IMG/VR virus record: IMGVR_UViG_3300028393_000233
Span: 1 to 32,066 of that record
From: a virus
Direction: 5' to 3' (one strand)
Length of the DNA: 32,066 bases
A model generated the notes under the pieces. That model was given only the letters and a program-made list of their open reading frames with translations, did not search any database and was not told the origin of the DNA. Within the stretch, counting starts at the first letter, position 1, and each line of letters starts with the position of its first letter. This document shows positions 14,023-31,128 of this stretch, one piece after another. A program made the position numbers and the translations under genes.

Positions 14023-14626
14023 TTAGTTTTTTATAATTTTCTAAATGTAAACCCTTAATATTTTGCGTTTGCCAGTCTTTTTCAGTAGTAAAAATAACTT
14101 TATTACTAAACGAAAAATAAAAACTACGATCAAAATTTCTTCTTACTTCACCGATATTAAAACCGCCTAAAACTCCATTAAATGTATGATGCTTATTATA
14201 TTTTGTATGTCTGTCCTGATGGTGTAATAAATGTGAATTATCATTTTGAAAATGTTGAAATAAATTAGATTTTACATTTAATTCTTTTTCAAATTCATTT
14301 AAAATAAAATAATTATAACTTAATGCTGGGCAAATAAAAATAGGTATTTTTATAAATTTTGAACCATTTTTATAAACATCAAATTCGAGTTCTGAATAAT
14401 TCATAGCCTGTAAAATATATTTAGCTATTTTTTCACCTCTTTTTTTATCAGGTCTTTTAGCTTCAATTCCAAAAAATATTTCAGAGTTTGGAATTTGCAA
14501 AACTAAATCAATTCTTTTTGTGCCACATTTTGACCTACATTCTTTTTTTACTATAAAATATTTTTCAAATTCTTTTACAATAAGATTTACAAAATCTGTT
14601 TCTGTTATTACATTATTTTTTTTCAT
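14003..14626 (-). CDS. PD-(D/E)XK-type nuclease of the replication operon
   Basis: In this 207-aa protein the first 80 residues have a restriction-endonuclease-like core: Cys-Gly-T-K-R-I-D (Asp40), then G-I-E-A-K (Glu55, Lys57), then a helix with Q-A-M-N-Y (Gln73). That is the D...ExK...Q order of PD-(D/E)XK enzymes, and it resembles VSR/recB-type small nucleases. The C-terminal 100 residues are His- and Phe-rich with no recognised domain. It overlaps the primase-polymerase by 20 bases and the 70-aa gene by 4 (ATGA). It may act as a flap or origin-processing nuclease, or digest host DNA. Confidence 0.7.
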   Translation of the reverse strand: MKKNNVITETDFVNLIVKEFEKYFIVKKECRSKCGTKRIDLVLQIPNSEIFFGIEAKRPDKKRGEKIAKYILQAMNYSELEFDVYKNGSKFIKIPIFICPALSYNYFILNEFEKELNVKSNLFQHFQNDNSHLLHHQDRHTKYNKHHTFNGVLGGFNIGEVRRNFDRSFYFSFSNKVIFTTEKDWQTQNIKGLHLENYKKLNEISVL

Positions 14627-14835
14627 GGTTTTAAAAATTTACATTTATACTCTCTTTGATTCGTGTAATATTCAATAACATGACTTTTAATGTTATCGTG
14701 ATTATTCACATTTTTTTTAAATACAAAAATTAGAGTATTTTTCTTTTCAATAACGATTGAAAAATGTTCTCTAAATTCTGAACTTTCATCTAATAAATTA
14801 AACTCAAAATTTGATTTTTTTAATTTGTAATACAT
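14623..14835 (-). CDS. Hypothetical protein, 70 aa, first gene of replication operon
   Basis: This protein is not recognised. It is a small basic beta-rich peptide (S-I-V-I-E-K-K-N-T-L-I-F-V-F) ending K-F-L-K-P. It is the first gene after the structured leader 14856-14906 and overlaps the nuclease gene by ATGA, so it is probably cotranscribed with the nuclease, primase and helicase genes. Confidence 0.6.
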   Translation of the reverse strand: MYYKLKKSNFEFNLLDESSEFREHFSIVIEKKNTLIFVFKKNVNNHDNIKSHVIEYYTNQREYKCKFLKP

Positions 14836-14855
14836 AATTTATTTTTTAAATTAAT

Positions 14856-14906
14856 AAATCCGATACATCCAGCCTATTGTGAGATTTGGCTTTCTGTATC
14901 GGATTT
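14856..14906 (-). promoter_or_regulatory. Large leader hairpin upstream of replication operon
   Basis: A perfect 12-bp inverted repeat (AAATCCGATACA at 14856-14867 with TGTATCGGATTT at 14895-14906) encloses a second 4-bp stem (AGCC 14871-14874 with GGCT 14888-14891) and a 13-base loop. On the minus strand it ends about 21 bases before the ATG at 14835 and lies within the leader of a transcript from the box at 14962-14955. It could be an attenuator, an RNA-stability element or a terminator. The downstream T-run is weak on the minus strand and better on the plus strand (TTTTT), where no gene needs it. Confidence 0.6.
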
Positions 14907-14954
14907 TTATAATATTTTTAAATGTTCGTAATAAATCTCACTAAATTACTCCTG

Positions 14955-15007
14955 CAAAGATACTAGTATTTTTCTATAAATAGTATTTATTTTTTAATGA
15001 ATAGTAT
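14955..15007 (-). promoter_or_regulatory. Candidate promoter with TAGTAT operator repeats
   Basis: The minus strand has TATCTTTG (14962-14955), matching TAnnTTTG, with no clear TTG at -33. The palindrome ATACTAGTAT (14960-14969) overlaps this box. The plus-strand motif TAGTAT recurs at 14964, 14981 and 15002, spaced 17 and 21 bases. The arrangement looks like a regulated promoter for the 70-aa gene and the replication genes behind it, with a protein binding across the -7 box and upstream. Confidence 0.42.
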
Positions 15008-15273: not shown

Positions 15274-15546
15274 TTAGTTTTTTTCGATTTTCCAACCCTT
15301 TACCGAATTAAAATATTTAGTTTCTCCTTGGGGATTAACCCACTCTCGACCCCCTAAATTGATTGATACTTTTACCGATTGACCTACTTCGTAAAAATCT
15401 AATAAACTTCCTTTATCCTGTGGGAATTCAATCGCAATGCTTTGCGGATATTGTTCTTCAGTTGATATTACCAATTCTCTTTTTTTATACGATGCACTAA
15501 TTTCTTGAGTCGCTCCGATTACTTTAATCGTTCCGATTACTTCCAT
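15274..15546 (-). CDS. DUF3127 OB-fold, probable ssDNA-binding protein
   Basis: This 90-aa protein closely follows the DUF3127 pattern common in Bacteroidota and their phages. It has G-T-I-K-V-I-G-A-T-Q-E (5-15), K-K-R-E-L-V-I-S-T (21-29), E-Q-Y-P-Q (31-35), and the C-terminal G-R-E-W-V-N-P-Q-G-E (66-75) with T-K-Y-F-N-S-V (76-82). The family is a small single-domain OB-fold thought to bind single-stranded DNA. Here it overlaps the YqaJ exonuclease gene by 10 bases, so it likely coats ssDNA made by that nuclease during recombination. Confidence 0.88.
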   Translation of the reverse strand: MEVIGTIKVIGATQEISASYKKRELVISTEEQYPQSIAIEFPQDKGSLLDFYEVGQSVKVSINLGGREWVNPQGETKYFNSVKGWKIEKN

Positions 15547-16154: not shown

Positions 16155-16648
16155 TTTGTTTCAATTTCTTTAGTTAATGTATAATTTTTAGTAATCATTT
16201 CAATAGTTGCATTAGCTTTCTTTGCGGCTTCAAAATTTGCCTCGGTAAAGTTTGGCAATACTTTATTTAAAACTGGCTGTAATGGCTTAATTCGTATCCC
16301 GTCGGTAATTGCTCCCATCATTTTAACATTACGGTCCACAAACAACTCGATTAACATACCTTTCCAATTCTCTATAACGTGGCATTCTTTACCAACTAAT
16401 CCATTTTTCTTTGCAAATCCTGCTAAAATTTTGTTATTAGTAGAATTTAATTTTAACGGTTTAATATTTTCTACAAAATGTAAAAATATACCGTCCATTT
16501 TAGTACCTGAAACATCAACATTTGTTTCATACTTTACTTCCTTAATGCTGAAAATCAATTTAATTCCAGCAGTTTCCATAGCATCTAAATCAGCACTCGC
16601 AAGGTGTGTAGATTTACGATATTGTCTCCAGTCGGTTTTAGTTTCCAT
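16133..16648 (-). CDS. Unknown 171-aa protein paired with YqaJ exonuclease
   Basis: I do not recognise a domain with confidence. The protein starts T-D-W-R-Q-Y-R-K-S-T-H-L-A-S-A-D-L (5-21). It continues with alternating beta strands (L-I-F-S-I-K-E-V, I-F-L-H-F-V-E-N) and K-M-M-G-A-I-T-D-G-I-R-I (109-120). It resembles, in layout, short beta-rich proteins encoded beside YqaJ in other Bacteroidota phages. The C-terminal 40 residues are helical. Tight coupling with YqaJ (22-base overlap) and the OB-fold gene makes a recombination role likely, for example strand annealing or DNA-end loading. That is inference. Confidence 0.7.
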   Translation of the reverse strand: METKTDWRQYRKSTHLASADLDAMETAGIKLIFSIKEVKYETNVDVSGTKMDGIFLHFVENIKPLKLNSTNNKILAGFAKKNGLVGKECHVIENWKGMLIELFVDRNVKMMGAITDGIRIKPLQPVLNKVLPNFTEANFEAAKKANATIEMITKNYTLTKEIETKWNNYKG

Positions 16649-16808
16649 TTTCTGTAGTTCTTAAAATTGATAATCCATTAAATTTTTCATACCAGTAAAG
16701 CATACTTTTAGTGCTTTCCTCTGCTTTTTGTGTTTGTTTAATCAATTGGCTTTCTAATTGCTCAATTAACAACATTTTTTCTTGTAAAATTTTTAATAAT
16801 GTTTCCAT
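16638..16808 (-). CDS. 56-aa coiled-coil peptide, first gene of recombination operon
   Basis: This ORF runs from the ATG at 16808 to a stop 11 bases inside the 171-aa gene. Residues 1-36 form a heptad-like helix rich in Leu, Glu, Lys and Gln (L-L-K-I-L-Q-E-K-M-L-L-I-E-Q-L), likely a coiled coil. Then M-L-Y-W-Y-E-K-F-N-G-L-S follows. It has a dedicated leader with a pseudoknot. No family is known. It may be a dimeric accessory factor, or a small regulator whose translation couples to the 171-aa gene. Confidence 0.62.
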   Translation of the reverse strand: METLLKILQEKMLLIEQLESQLIKQTQKAEESTKSMLYWYEKFNGLSILRTTENGN

Positions 16809-16824
16809 TTTTTTTAAATAAATA

Positions 16825-16890
16825 CCCGAACTAAAAGAGGTAAGGCACTCTTAAAATTCGGGATTTGTTTTTTTCGTTCGACCGCCTTAC
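16825..16890 (-). promoter_or_regulatory. Pseudoknotted 5' leader of the recombination operon
   Basis: A hairpin is formed by CCCGAA (16825-16830) with TTCGGG (16857-16862), extended inward by AAGAG (16835-16839) with CTCTT (16848-16852). Its 8-base loop (16840-16847) contains GTAAGGC, which is perfectly complementary to GCCTTAC at 16884-16890. On the minus-strand RNA the order is GUAAGGC, hairpin 5' arm, loop GCCUUAC, hairpin 3' arm, which is an H-type pseudoknot. It ends 16 bases before the ATG at 16808 and begins about 17 bases after a -7 box. It could be a translational operator, an attenuator or a riboswitch-like element. No known class was recognised. Confidence 0.55.
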
Positions 16891-16906
16891 TTGTCGTTTT
16901 GTTTTG

Positions 16907-16914
16907 CAAATATA
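16907..16914 (-). promoter_or_regulatory. Promoter -7 box of recombination operon
   Basis: TATATTTG on the minus strand is an exact TAnnTTTG box, about 100 bases upstream of the first gene and just before the pseudoknot leader. No TTG lies at -33. The same octamer serves the early promoter (21384-21391) and the homing-endonuclease leader (20070-20077). Confidence 0.45.
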
Positions 16915-18796: not shown

Positions 18797-19018
18797 TTAT
18801 TTGTTTTTAAATGTTTCGTTATAATATTCTTCTCCAGTTAATATATAAGTATAGTTTGAAATACCTCTACTTTGTTTGGTTTTTTTACCATGTGCATCAA
18901 TAATCTGTTGCTTTTCTATTTCTTTGGCTTGGTTATGAATTTCTTTTGGAATACCATCTGATAATAATCCAAATTTTGACATTTCAAATAATAACCATTC
19001 TACTGCTGTTTGTCTCAT
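18797..19018 (-). CDS. 73-aa hypothetical protein, 'QTAVEWL' type
   Basis: The N-terminus R-Q-T-A-V-E-W-L-L-F-E resembles the start of small conserved proteins found in many Flavobacteriia phages, in which A-V-E-W-L is followed by a central I-E-K-Q-Q-I-I-D-A-H block. Here it includes Q-A-K-E-I-E-K-Q-Q-I-I-D-A-H (31-44). The function of that family is unknown. It overlaps the preceding gene by ATGA. Confidence 0.68.
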   Translation of the reverse strand: MRQTAVEWLLFEMSKFGLLSDGIPKEIHNQAKEIEKQQIIDAHGKKTKQSRGISNYTYILTGEEYYNETFKNK

Positions 19019-19212
19019 AATTTTACTTCTATTTGGTTAATTTTATCCTGTTCTAAAAGCGAAATCAATCTGTTATCGCTTTGTTTTTTAATTTCAATTT
19101 GATTAAAGGCTTCCATCATTTGCTCGTTATTTGAAATGTCACCCCCTAAATTCGCGAACCATGTTTGAAAACGTGCGCACTCATCGACCCATTTAGTTAT
19201 TTTATTATCCAT
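19015..19212 (-). CDS. 65-aa hypothetical protein
   Basis: This protein is not recognised. The N-terminal half has W-V-D-E-C-A-R-F-Q-T-W-F (8-19). The C-terminal half is acidic/basic helical and ends I-N-Q-I-E-V-K-L. It is the first gene after the homing endonuclease stop, 10 bases downstream of it, so the endonuclease was inserted immediately in front of it. Confidence 0.62.
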   Translation of the reverse strand: MDNKITKWVDECARFQTWFANLGGDISNNEQMMEAFNQIEIKKQSDNRLISLLEQDKINQIEVKL

Positions 19213-19222
19213 AATTTTAATT

Positions 19223-19987
19223 TTAAATTAATATAAATTTTGTGTTATTTTTTCTTTTATTATTTAATTTTCTGCCTAATAATTTTATTTTAAATATTTT
19301 TTCAACTTCAGAAATGGAATTATAAATTATTTTAGTCTCAATGTCCATAACTTTTTTCTTTACTGTTGAATTATCAGATATTAATTTTTTAGTCTCATTA
19401 CTTACTTTTCTTAATTTACTTGTTATTCTTATTTTTTCTTTATGTTCTTCAGATAATTTTTTACCATAAGAATAATGATTTATTCCAAAAACACTTTTTT
19501 TACCTTTATTAGAATTACTAATTTTTAATTTTGTTTCTTCACTATGTTTATAATTTTTATTATTTAAAACTGATTTATTAATTGCCTCAATACTTCTTTT
19601 TCTGCCTTTTAATTTTAAACCAATTTTTAAACCAATTTGAATATCTCTTTTTTTGCCAGTCAAGCTTAATCTAATTTTATTTTTAGTTTCAATACTTAAT
19701 TTTCCACTTTTATCATTAGTTGTAGTTAATTTACAATTTAACCCCGTTTTTAAAACATCATAAACATCTTGATAATATCTTTCACGTTCATTTAATAATT
19801 CAAGACTACACTTTTCTATTATTTCAAAAATATGATTTTGAACATTGTATTTTAAAAAAGATTTATATAAAACTATTTGATTTTTACAATTTAATAATCT
19901 ATAATTATTAAAACGTTTTTCAATGTTTATACTTTGTCCAATATAAACACGATTTGTAGGTGATGTAATTTTGTATATTCCTATCAT
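19223..19987 (-). CDS. Free-standing GIY-YIG homing endonuclease with NUMOD3 repeats
   Basis: From Met at 19987 this is a 254-aa protein. It has G-I-Y (3-5), Y-I-G (15-17) and Arg25 in E-K-R-F, the active-site signature of GIY-YIG nucleases. A Glu follows in the S-L-E-L-L-N-E-R-E segment. From about residue 110 there are lysine-rich repeats of the NUMOD3 DNA-binding type (S-I-E-T-K-N-K-I, S-E-E-T-K-L-K-I-S, S-E-E-H-K-E-K-I). The upstream 31 codons of the longer frame come from the leader. Such genes make a break in unoccupied sites and copy themselves between phage genomes. Neighbouring genes are intact, so this is not in an intron. A pseudoknot and -7 box directly upstream suggest own expression control. 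Confidence 0.92.
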   Translation of the reverse strand: MIGIYKITSPTNRVYIGQSINIEKRFNNYRLLNCKNQIVLYKSFLKYNVQNHIFEIIEKCSLELLNERERYYQDVYDVLKTGLNCKLTTTNDKSGKLSIETKNKIRLSLTGKKRDIQIGLKIGLKLKGRKRSIEAINKSVLNNKNYKHSEETKLKISNSNKGKKSVFGINHYSYGKKLSEEHKEKIRITSKLRKVSNETKKLISDNSTVKKKVMDIETKIIYNSISEVEKIFKIKLLGRKLNNKRKNNTKFILI

Positions 19988-19993
19988 AAAAGT

Positions 19994-20061
19994 AAATTCC
20001 CATTCAATTATACCGCCAAGTGATAAAAGAATGGGAATTTTTAAGTTCTTAATCTTGGCGG
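19994..20061 (-). promoter_or_regulatory. H-type pseudoknot in homing-endonuclease leader
   Basis: Two interleaved perfect inverted repeats are present: AAATTCCCATTC (19994-20005) with GAATGGGAATTT (20029-20040), 12 bp, and CCGCCAAG (20013-20020) with CTTGGCGG (20054-20061), 8 bp. Because each arm lies between the arms of the other pair, the minus-strand RNA can form an H-type pseudoknot with connecting lengths 13, 8 and 7 bases. The last stem ends 6 bases before the ATG at 19987, so it may hide the ribosome entry site. No known riboswitch was recognised, and the region is too small for a group I intron core. Confidence 0.65.
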
Positions 20062-20069
20062 ATTTAAAG

Positions 20070-20077
20070 CAAATATA
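20070..20077 (-). promoter_or_regulatory. Promoter -7 box of the homing endonuclease
   Basis: TATATTTG on the minus strand sits 8 bases before the first pseudoknot arm, so a transcript begun about 6-10 bases downstream would start with the structured leader. No TTG at -33 is seen. Identical octamers occur at 16907-16914 and 21384-21391. Confidence 0.45.
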
Positions 20078-20083
20078 CAAATT

Positions 20084-21471: not shown

Positions 21472-21476
21472 TAATT

Positions 21477-21564
21477 AATCATTAAGGGATTCGAACCCTT
21501 ATCTAGTGGATTAACCACCGTGTTACCCCTGTATGGGCTTTACACCATATTACACCAAATGATA
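21477..21564 (-). tRNA. tRNA-like element, degenerate class II type
   Basis: On the minus strand a perfect T arm is present (AAGGG, loop TTCGAAT, CCCTT, at 21500-21484). It is followed by AATGATT, which pairs with ATCATT near the 5' end (6 of 7 acceptor pairs). The total of 88 bases fits a class II (Leu/Ser type) tRNA. A long variable arm is possible (GTGG TTAAT CCAC). The D region (T-G-G-T-G-T-A-A-T-A-T-G-G-T) looks like a Leu D loop but cannot form a D stem. The anticodon arm candidate has only a 5-base loop between CCC and GGG. No anticodon can be assigned with confidence. It may be a decayed tRNA, a tRNA mimic, or a tRNA 3' end kept as an attachment site. Confidence 0.45.
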
Positions 21565-29479: not shown

Positions 29480-31128
29480 TAGTTCCCTGCTGTTAATTGT
29501 GAATCATTTACTGCGCTTGTTAAAGCCATTACAACTTTCTCTTTGATAGCTGTTGCGCTTTCTTGTATGTTAGTCGTTTTAATGCTAAAATCGTGTATTA
29601 AAGAGCCTATTTGTATGTTAACCGTTACTGCTTTGTTTCCTTGAACTCCTGCTGTGCCCTTGGTTGGTTTTCCTCCCGCTGTTAATTTTCCATTTGGAGC
29701 GCCTCCCAAAACATTTTTATTTTTTGTTGCAACTTCTTTAATTGCTGGTTTAGTACCTTTCTTTTTAGTTTCTTCATCTGTTACTAAATTTAAAGATTTT
29801 CTAAAACCCATTAATTGATTTGCTCCATCTTTTGCCCATTGTGCTCCTGTTATTTTACCAATCCAGTGCATAGCTTGTTGTAATGGGTATAAAATAGCAT
29901 CAAACAAAACTACTCCAATTCTTTTTATTCCTGCGGTAAAACCTCCAGTATTAAAAGCATCTTTTATTGATTGCCAATGACTATAAATTGACATTATAGC
30001 ATCAATAACTAAACCTATTGGACCAAGTAATAAAGATAACGCAGCACCCCAATCATTAAAGTGAACTACTATTTCGGCAACTAAAGCTATTGCAGCGGCT
30101 ATTCCTATAATTAACAACCCTATGGGGTTAGCATCCATAGCGACATTCAACGCCCATTGTGCAGCTTCTAATACTCCTAATCCTTCGGCTCTAGCCATGT
30201 CCCATCCTAGTAATAATTCACTAGCTGTTGCAGACAGTCCTTTCCACCAAACGCTTAATTTTTCAAATCCTAAAATTCCTAACATTATACCTTTATAGCC
30301 AATATAAATTCCAGTAATAAACATAAGCGCATCAGAGTGGTCTTTCATAAATTTACCTAAACTTTTAAATTGATCGGCAATATAATTTAACGCTGGAACT
30401 AATTTTTCTAAAAATTCCATAGCTACCTCTCCTATCGCAACTTGAAAATTACCCATTCTTTTAGTAAATCCAATTAATGGGTTAGCGTCATAAGCTGCTT
30501 TAGATGCACCGCCATATTTATTTTGAATTTCGGTAAGCATTATTTGTTGTGCTTTCACAATTTCCCCCTTTGCAACTAAAGCGTCAATCGCATCGGTTTG
30601 CTCTTTTGAAAACATTACTCCTGATTTAGAAAGTTTTTTTATACCCTCACTAGGATTATCCATTGCTTTTCCAAATTGAATAGACATACTATGTAAATCT
30701 TGACCTGTTTTAGCGGCTACATTTGCGATTGCATCTCCAATTTTTGGGAAGTTTTCTTTTGTAAGTCCTCCAAAAGTTAACATTTGAGCTTGCATGTCTA
30801 AAATATCGGCTTTGCCGTAAATCATCCTAGAGGACATTTCGGAAGCCATATCTTTAATGCTATTCATAGTCATTCCTGCTGCGCCTCCAGTACTTTCTAA
30901 CCCTGCTTGTACTTGTGCAGTAGCTTGGTGTAATTTTTCCACCTTTTCAATACCTTCTTTTATAAAATCCAATCCTTTAAAAACTGAAAAACCAATTCCA
31001 AGCGTGCCCATAATTTTATTAAGCCCGCCCATTGTGCTCTCAAGTTTTACGGCTTGTCCGTCAGCTTGTTGCAATTTGCCCGAAAGCATATCGTTAGCGG
31101 TTATCGTATATCTAATTTGATTATCCAT
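29479..31128 (-). CDS. Tail tape measure protein
   Basis: This 549-aa protein follows the tail-assembly chaperone genes and precedes the hub module. The N-terminal part is amphipathic helical (D-M-L-S-G-K-L-Q-Q-A-D, 13-23). The typical segment G-L-T-K-E-N-F-P-K-I-G-D-A-I-A (about 120-134) is shared with many Mu-like tape measures. Several hydrophobic membrane-crossing segments lie in the middle (around 265-290, 335-360 and 365-390). The C-terminus is Lys/Gly-rich. At roughly 1.5 A per residue, the length predicts a tail of about 80 nm. The ATG shares its A with the stop of the frameshifted chaperone (TAATG). Confidence 0.92.
   Translation of the reverse strand: MDNQIRYTITANDMLSGKLQQADGQAVKLESTMGGLNKIMGTLGIGFSVFKGLDFIKEGIEKVEKLHQATAQVQAGLESTGGAAGMTMNSIKDMASEMSSRMIYGKADILDMQAQMLTFGGLTKENFPKIGDAIANVAAKTGQDLHSMSIQFGKAMDNPSEGIKKLSKSGVMFSKEQTDAIDALVAKGEIVKAQQIMLTEIQNKYGGASKAAYDANPLIGFTKRMGNFQVAIGEVAMEFLEKLVPALNYIADQFKSLGKFMKDHSDALMFITGIYIGYKGIMLGILGFEKLSVWWKGLSATASELLLGWDMARAEGLGVLEAAQWALNVAMDANPIGLLIIGIAAAIALVAEIVVHFNDWGAALSLLLGPIGLVIDAIMSIYSHWQSIKDAFNTGGFTAGIKRIGVVLFDAILYPLQQAMHWIGKITGAQWAKDGANQLMGFRKSLNLVTDEETKKKGTKPAIKEVATKNKNVLGGAPNGKLTAGGKPTKGTAGVQGNKAVTVNIQIGSLIHDFSIKTTNIQESATAIKEKVVMALTSAVNDSQLTAGN

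Follow-up and report, generated by a model that had tools for sequence, protein, structure and literature searches.

A leader RNA lies directly 3' of a -7 promoter box and 5' of a GIY-YIG/NUMOD3 homing endonuclease gene in the window (the whole 32,066-nucleotide stretch analysed, a viral contig recorded as IMGVR_UViG_3300028393_000233). From comparison of related sequences, its fold is more aptly viewed as a pair of hairpins joined by kissing loops, and the leader appears to belong to an undescribed, widespread and phage-specific family of cis-acting leader RNAs in which shape and position are conserved while the sequence turns over freely. Our overall explanation, which we regard as about evenly poised between right and wrong, is that these kissing-hairpin leaders act as promoter-proximal control RNAs, most likely as attenuators. 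Phage leader pseudoknots as such are already known; we rate as new the family itself, its topology among such pseudoknots, and its breadth.

Read directly on the minus strand from box to start codon (20077-19985), the order is TATATTTG, CTTTAAAT, CCGCCAAG, attaagaactta, AAATTCCCATTC, ttttatca, CTTGGCGG, tataatt, GAATGGGAATTT, ACTTTT and ATG (Table 1). A first-pass annotation of this DNA had reported two perfect interleaved inverted repeats of 8 bp and 12 bp between the box and the endonuclease gene; both are present where it placed them, the first beginning 8 bases past the TATATTTG box and the second stopping 6 bases short of the ATG. The only box at the expected position lies upstream of the structure, and a TAnnTTT[G/A] box is found at the equivalent position ahead of other leaders too. 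The annotation had further called the structure an H-type pseudoknot; its two interleaved helices stand, but the P1 and P4 stems, which covary, enclose both P2 strands, and kissing-hairpin pseudoknot is therefore a better name than plain H-type. In the window copy P1 is short (six pairs, two of them of the G-C type, split by a bulge) and P4 consists of A-U pairs only, so the assignment of these two stems rests on the family: P1 is longer in related leaders, such as those of Polaribacter phage Freya (CTTTAAA/TTTAAAG) and elemoB. The UUAU/AUAA pairing of P4 also appears in the nested fold of the window leader. Direct reading, together with a match to the covariance model R1 described below, finds the box, P1, P2, P3/P4, the U-rich tail and the AUG all present in this leader.

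Table 1. Positions of the leader elements, the inserted cassette and the two further leaders in the window.
Feature	Position	Strand	Basis
Inserted cassette (-7 box, leader and endonuclease gene)	19213..20083	-	Comparison with L276 and L019
-7 promoter box TATATTTG, Bacteroidota type TAnnTTTG	20070..20077	-	Direct reading
P1 5' arm region CTTtaAAT	20062..20069	-	AAT:ATT and CTT:AAG pairs
P2 5' strand CCGCCAAG, in the P1 loop	20054..20061	-	8-bp perfect complement of 20013-20020
P1 3' arm ATTAAG	20048..20053	-	P1 varies with compensation in alignment A2
P3 5' arm AAATTCCCATTC	20029..20040	-	12-bp perfect complement of 19994-20005
P4 5' arm TTAT	20023..20026	-	Pairs with ATAA; P4 covaries across leaders
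P2 3' strand CTTGGCGG, P4 loop, kissing partner	20013..20020	-	P2 covariation in A2
P4 3' arm ATAA	20008..20011	-	Covariation and nested fold
P3 3' arm GAATGGGAATTT	19994..20005	-	Own-partner pairing across 26 non-redundant leaders
U-rich link ACTTTT, P3 to start codon	19988..19993	-	U-rich tail common in the family
ATG start codon of the endonuclease gene	19987-19985	-	Direct reading
GIY-YIG / NUMOD3 homing endonuclease gene, 254 aa	19223..19987	-	Pfam GIY-YIG (E 1.9e-6) and NUMOD3 (E 6.8e-13)
Second leader, ahead of gene 14623-14835 and a replication operon (BT4734-like primase N domain, DUF5906)	14849..14962	-	R1, E 6.8e-5 (rough)
Third leader, ahead of gene 16638-16808 and a recombination operon (YqaJ, DUF3127)	16811..16914	-	R1, E 0.0075 (rough)

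When 80 relatives of the endonuclease protein were taken from viral contigs, about thirty distinct leaders among them were found to share one plan in quite different letters: a -7 box, hairpin P1, an A/U-rich linker, the P3 5' arm, P4, the P3 3' arm, a U-rich tract and the ATG, with P4 a short stem whose loop pairs with that of P1 to form P2. Scanning for this architecture together with box and ATG gave 2 sites in the window but none in three shuffles; over 2.37 Mb of collected loci the same scan found 233 real against 8 shuffled, which is no unbiased rate, as these loci were partly chosen by the leader pattern. Some scan matches fell within coding sequence and represent chance; geometry filters removed most of these, and the 233 scan leaders were reduced to 193 distinct ones and then, after the filters, to 153.

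Compensating changes among related leaders, for which the first-pass annotation had recommended a search, proved abundant. In an alignment (A2) of 31 leaders of easily aligned spacing, chosen mainly by a DNA pattern that excludes P1 and P2, or by the protein encoded downstream, 91.6% of cells are paired (71.4% when shuffled, and 33–47% in slid-partner controls) and both sides have changed in 21 of the 24 pairs. The crossing helix P2 is paired in 97.7% of cells, with double changes in six of its seven pairs, and RNAalifold, run unguided, selected it as the consensus helix, with no alternative fold evident in A2. Each kissing loop in this easily aligned class is ~8 nt, 7 of them paired. The internal loop between P3 and P4 in A2 often reads UGAU / UGAU or UGAAA / GGAUU (e.g., in L014, L265 and L168), and could form tandem G.A pairs. 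Across the 153 leaders P4 has at least 3 bp in 122, in many compensating versions (e.g., TGAGT/ACTCA, TAGT/ACTA, AAAG/CTTT and CACG/CGTG), and there are ~60 distinct P2 sequences, with no primary-sequence core across leader classes.

For the class to which the window leader belongs, defined by a P2 of CCGCCAAG that was fixed by the search, the test falls on P3: in 26 non-redundant leaders its arms pair far better with their own partners than with foreign ones (0 of 20,000 permutations), and the non-standard P3 pairs comprise 26 G.U and 1 A.C, which argues that selection acts on the transcript strand. With such heavy compensatory change, the comparisons support the leader as a real structure at the RNA level. 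The same asymmetry disfavours recognition of the repeats at the DNA level, whether as an endonuclease end, a recombination end or a transposition end. The box, leader and endonuclease were inserted together (below), as might be expected of such an element, but the pairing is selected in the transcript, the sequences of P2, P3 and P4 are free, and core operons that do not move have the leader, and we hold this explanation to be very improbable.

The covariance model R1, made from A2 without any window sequence, scores the leader described above highest in the window (41 bits, E-value 2.5e-6, the E-values of this model being rough), followed by two further leaders (Table 1). The helices of that at 14849-14962 are P1 GTAAT/ATTAC, P2 GTGAGATTT/AAATCTCAC and P3 AAATCCGATACA/TGTATCGGATTT, and those of that at 16811-16914 are P2 GTAAGGC/GCCTTAC and P3 CCCGAA/TTCGGG; an antisense match of the latter ranks between the two. 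A second weak match of the leader sequence in the window, at 30439-30463, was rejected as chance, being without partner arms. With two more window copies fronting recombination and replication operons, and many gene types behind leaders elsewhere, the structure can no longer be regarded as a homing-endonuclease feature, as it had been in the first-pass annotation. The genes behind the 153 distinct leaders include GIY-YIG and HNH (NUMOD4, AP2) endonucleases, BT4734-like primases, ResIII helicases, DUF6291 proteins, a DNA methyltransferase, recombination genes and others. A fixed trait of this endonuclease family was likewise ruled out, about half of the 80 protein-selected homologues being without the leader.

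In another group of GIY-YIG homologues, a box resembling TATCTTTG is followed instead by one strong hairpin (GGGGAGTAG..CTACTCCCC or similar) and a U-run leading directly into the ATG (loci L047, L053, L055, L056, L059, L061-L063, L067-L069, L072-L081 and L083), and several of these loci sit behind an apparent capsid gene end. We also observed that DUF3127 genes, whose products we take to be SSB-like, adjoin leader-bearing operons or endonuclease genes, both in the window (15274-15546, minus strand) and in hattifnatt9-1 (gp042). Orthologous genes may carry leaders unrelated in sequence, as those of the METLLKI gene do, with a P2 of GTAAGGCG in the window, CCGCCAAG in L276 and GGTCAG in L019. 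Within one contig the kissing sequences never repeat (0 of 39 pairs against 3.3 expected, p ~0.02, counted over 27 contigs or isolates that each carry multiple leaders, L049, L087 and L179 among them), a pattern that we consider suggestive only.

In L276, whose upstream gene is 96% identical to that of the window, and in L019, the upstream stop codon runs straight into the next gene and the segment 20083-19213 is absent, which indicates that the endonuclease brought its own promoter box and leader along. The leader of this cassette is of the same kind as those of the phage's core operons. It had been suggested that the structure might be a transfer signal of the element; promoter, leader and gene were indeed inserted as one cassette, yet non-mobile core operons carry the leader too, which speaks against such a role. 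In L005 (2600-3970) the first 17 codons of a gene resembling 19015-19212 are followed by a related endonuclease cassette whose leader is a different one, and downstream we noted a fuller copy of such a gene, a partial duplication of the likely endonuclease target.

The pattern of the window's class matches 78 viral contigs and a single short contig among ~85,000 bacterial and archaeal species genomes; a search of 301 host-family genomes again returned only that short contig, and the pattern of a second class gave one match in these 301 genomes that may be chance (L285; genome G143, contig 37, 41338-41370). Patterns were used for the host genomes because R1 over a whole host genome was too insensitive and missed a known copy. 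By these searches leader-matching sequence is nearly absent from bacterial genomes. R1 finds leaders in the isolates FL-1, hattifnatt9-1, elemoB and Freya_1, the hattifnatt and mumin group of Flavobacterium phages carries the leader (34 records), and the isolates found by sequence similarity all infect Flavobacterium or Polaribacter. In hattifnatt9-1, which infects Flavobacterium sp. LMO9, leaders lie at 9.3, 13.3 and probably 14.3 kb. The window terminase is ~40% identical, over about half its length, to those of Winoviridae phages, e.g., Flavobacterium phage FPSV-S1 and pippi8-1; neither of these two relatives showed a leader with box and ATG. Rfam 15 at gathering score gave no match to the leader in the window, only to tRNA elsewhere, and no match in 20 loci, most of them with leaders, while a permissive Rfam search gave nothing credible for the leader; a literature search for pseudoknots or leaders of GIY-YIG genes or Flavobacterium phages found no description of this one. 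An Rfam tRNA match at 21476-21564 of the window (minus strand; 37.3 bits, E-value 1.6e-4) is missing from the ARAGORN output.

As to its mode of action, we tentatively favour, at somewhat less than even likelihood, an attenuator that folds at the promoter, resembles a terminator or pause element and is set by the kissing helix. Judging from the -7 box, the transcript would begin at the P1 hairpin. P1, with a loop of ~8 nt, would be connected by the A/U-rich linker to a second hairpin in which P4 caps P3 (loop ~8–11 nt); the two would join through the 7–9 bp loop-loop helix P2, and P3 would lead into the U-rich tract ahead of the start codon, P3 and tract together forming the terminator- or pause-like element. 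The kissing helix would fold first, as RNA polymerase leaves the promoter, and would set how frequently this element acts, tuning how much is made from early, replication and recombination operons as well as from endonuclease cassettes. At least five T occur within 8 nt past P3 in 136 of the 153 leaders, across all gene kinds, and the conservation of topology, promoter proximity and U-rich tract, but not of primary sequence, fits an attenuator at the promoter. As P2 and P3 are mutually compatible, no two-state switch is apparent. Against termination, P3 in the window's class ends in A-U pairs and its T-run is interrupted (AATTTACTTTT), which makes it weak as a terminator; the window P3 was not reported by a consensus terminator scan, although the 8-nt loop limit of that scan would exclude it anyway. 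Moreover, a terminator ahead of essential replication genes would require relief by some factor, and the U-richness could serve ribosome entry instead.

Ribosome entry is also part of a rather improbable alternative, in which a compact knot from +1 onwards guards the 5' end of phage mRNA from decay while the U-rich tract helps ribosomes to load without an SD. That P1 begins a few nt past the -7 box in every class, that unrelated genes follow the leader and that matching sequence is nearly missing from host genomes would all agree with a stabiliser or translation aid of this kind; it leaves unexplained, however, the U that follows P3 even where a separate A-rich start context exists, as well as the distinct spacing found in endonuclease genes. 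That spacing, from P3 to the AUG, has a median of 11 nt in endonuclease leaders and 17 nt in those of other genes, and the start context differs in parallel: A is found at -3 in 27% and 75%, and at -13 in 6% and 43%, respectively, and U occupies -3 in 71% of endonuclease leaders. The difference holds within each leader class. Initiation in F. johnsoniae benefits from A at positions -3, -6, -12 and -13 and from little structure around the AUG (PMC6847099). Based on the contrast and these rules, blocking of the start codon is probably not the general role of the leader, and reduced translation is likely for the endonuclease copies only. The first-pass annotation had proposed that the structure may hold down translation until late; spacing and start context agree with lowered translation in the endonuclease copies alone. 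In such cassettes, P3 inside the ribosome footprint and the poor start context would lower translation further, in addition to the attenuation that we favour.

The leader represents an apparently undescribed, widespread RNA family in phages about whose gene regulation little is known, and through it endonucleases that are mobile are tied to early and replication genes belonging to the phage itself. We speculate, while regarding the idea as doubtful, that it forms a shape-coded RNA regulon in flavobacterial phages, in which early operons and endonuclease cassettes share the kissing topology but have private kissing sequences, one shape-reading factor (RNA polymerase or a phage protein) controls all of them, and the private sequences prevent cross-kissing or recombining. 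The non-repeating kissing sequences of each contig raise the question of RNA orthogonality or recombination avoidance. As cultured phages (the hattifnatt and mumin groups, elemo and Freya) carry the leader, its role is testable at once.

Several known systems resemble the leader in part. The hairpins of T4-type homing endonucleases (I-TevI, mobE, segB) are likewise structures 5' of an endonuclease start codon, with a promoter close by and an expected lowering of translation; their pairing engages the ribosome-binding site, and a late promoter located within the hairpin provides a way around it (PMC3014915). In the window leader, by contrast, the region from P3 to the AUG is unpaired both in the model and in the nested fold, with neither ribosome-binding region nor start codon engaged, so it is not a T4-type endonuclease hairpin; its promoter also lies outside the structure, it forms a kissing complex, and the family serves core genes too.

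The leader of T4 gene 32, a DNA-replication gene, has a pseudoknot and, after it, an A+U-rich start region that is free of structure and to which gp32 binds (PMC3014915). The kissing-hairpin leader might similarly be an operator recognised by shape, with a phage protein, e.g., a single-strand-binding protein, binding the pseudoknot and spreading over the A/U-rich start region, as a translational or regulon operator that, late in infection, shuts off endonucleases along with the genes for replication and recombination, like gp32 on its own mRNA. A pseudoknot followed by a U/A-rich start region ahead of replication and recombination genes is what this would call for, and a DUF3127 gene is in the operon led by the 16914 leader and, in hattifnatt9-1, beside a leader-bearing endonuclease gene. 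However, we think such an operator unlikely: the gp32 pseudoknot is 67 nt upstream of its start codon, compared to 6–36 nt here, and with the leader sequence unconstrained only its shape would be readable. Gene 32 also differs in being one gene with a short H-type knot and a known autogenous ligand, whereas the kissing-hairpin leader has many genes and no known ligand.

The put RNA of HK022 is the counterpart for a third, still less likely, proposal, in which the nascent leader binds RNA polymerase, which would then ignore pauses and terminators in long early operons. Like HK022 putL, the leader has two stem-loops in ~70–90 nt directly behind a phage promoter (that it is an early one here is suggested by the genes behind it), with no dedicated protein known (PMC9378689), and it opens replication and recombination operons. 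The put RNAs, however, share sequence and make specific RNA polymerase contacts, with the beta' zinc-binding domain, and their description does not mention kissing loops or a pseudoknot (PMC9378689), whereas the leader sequence is free and short endonuclease cassettes carry it too. Compared with put by description rather than by direct alignment, the leader shows no evident common sequence.

Intrinsic terminators and attenuators, the nearest parallel to the mode that we favour, also have a stem followed at once by a U-rich tract and are free in sequence, though the window copy is weaker (AATTTACTTTT); in the leader, where termination is putative, the loop of ~16–42 nt differs in holding P4 and a kissing strand. 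For the kissing helix itself, the parallel is the ColE1 RNA I/RNA II complex, in which a 7-bp loop-loop helix is recognised by Rop through its shape and with tolerance of sequence. The two are alike in having a loop-loop helix that is, or in the leader would be, read by shape; in ColE1, however, two RNAs meet in trans in the control of plasmid copy number, whereas in the kissing-hairpin leader the contact is made within one RNA.
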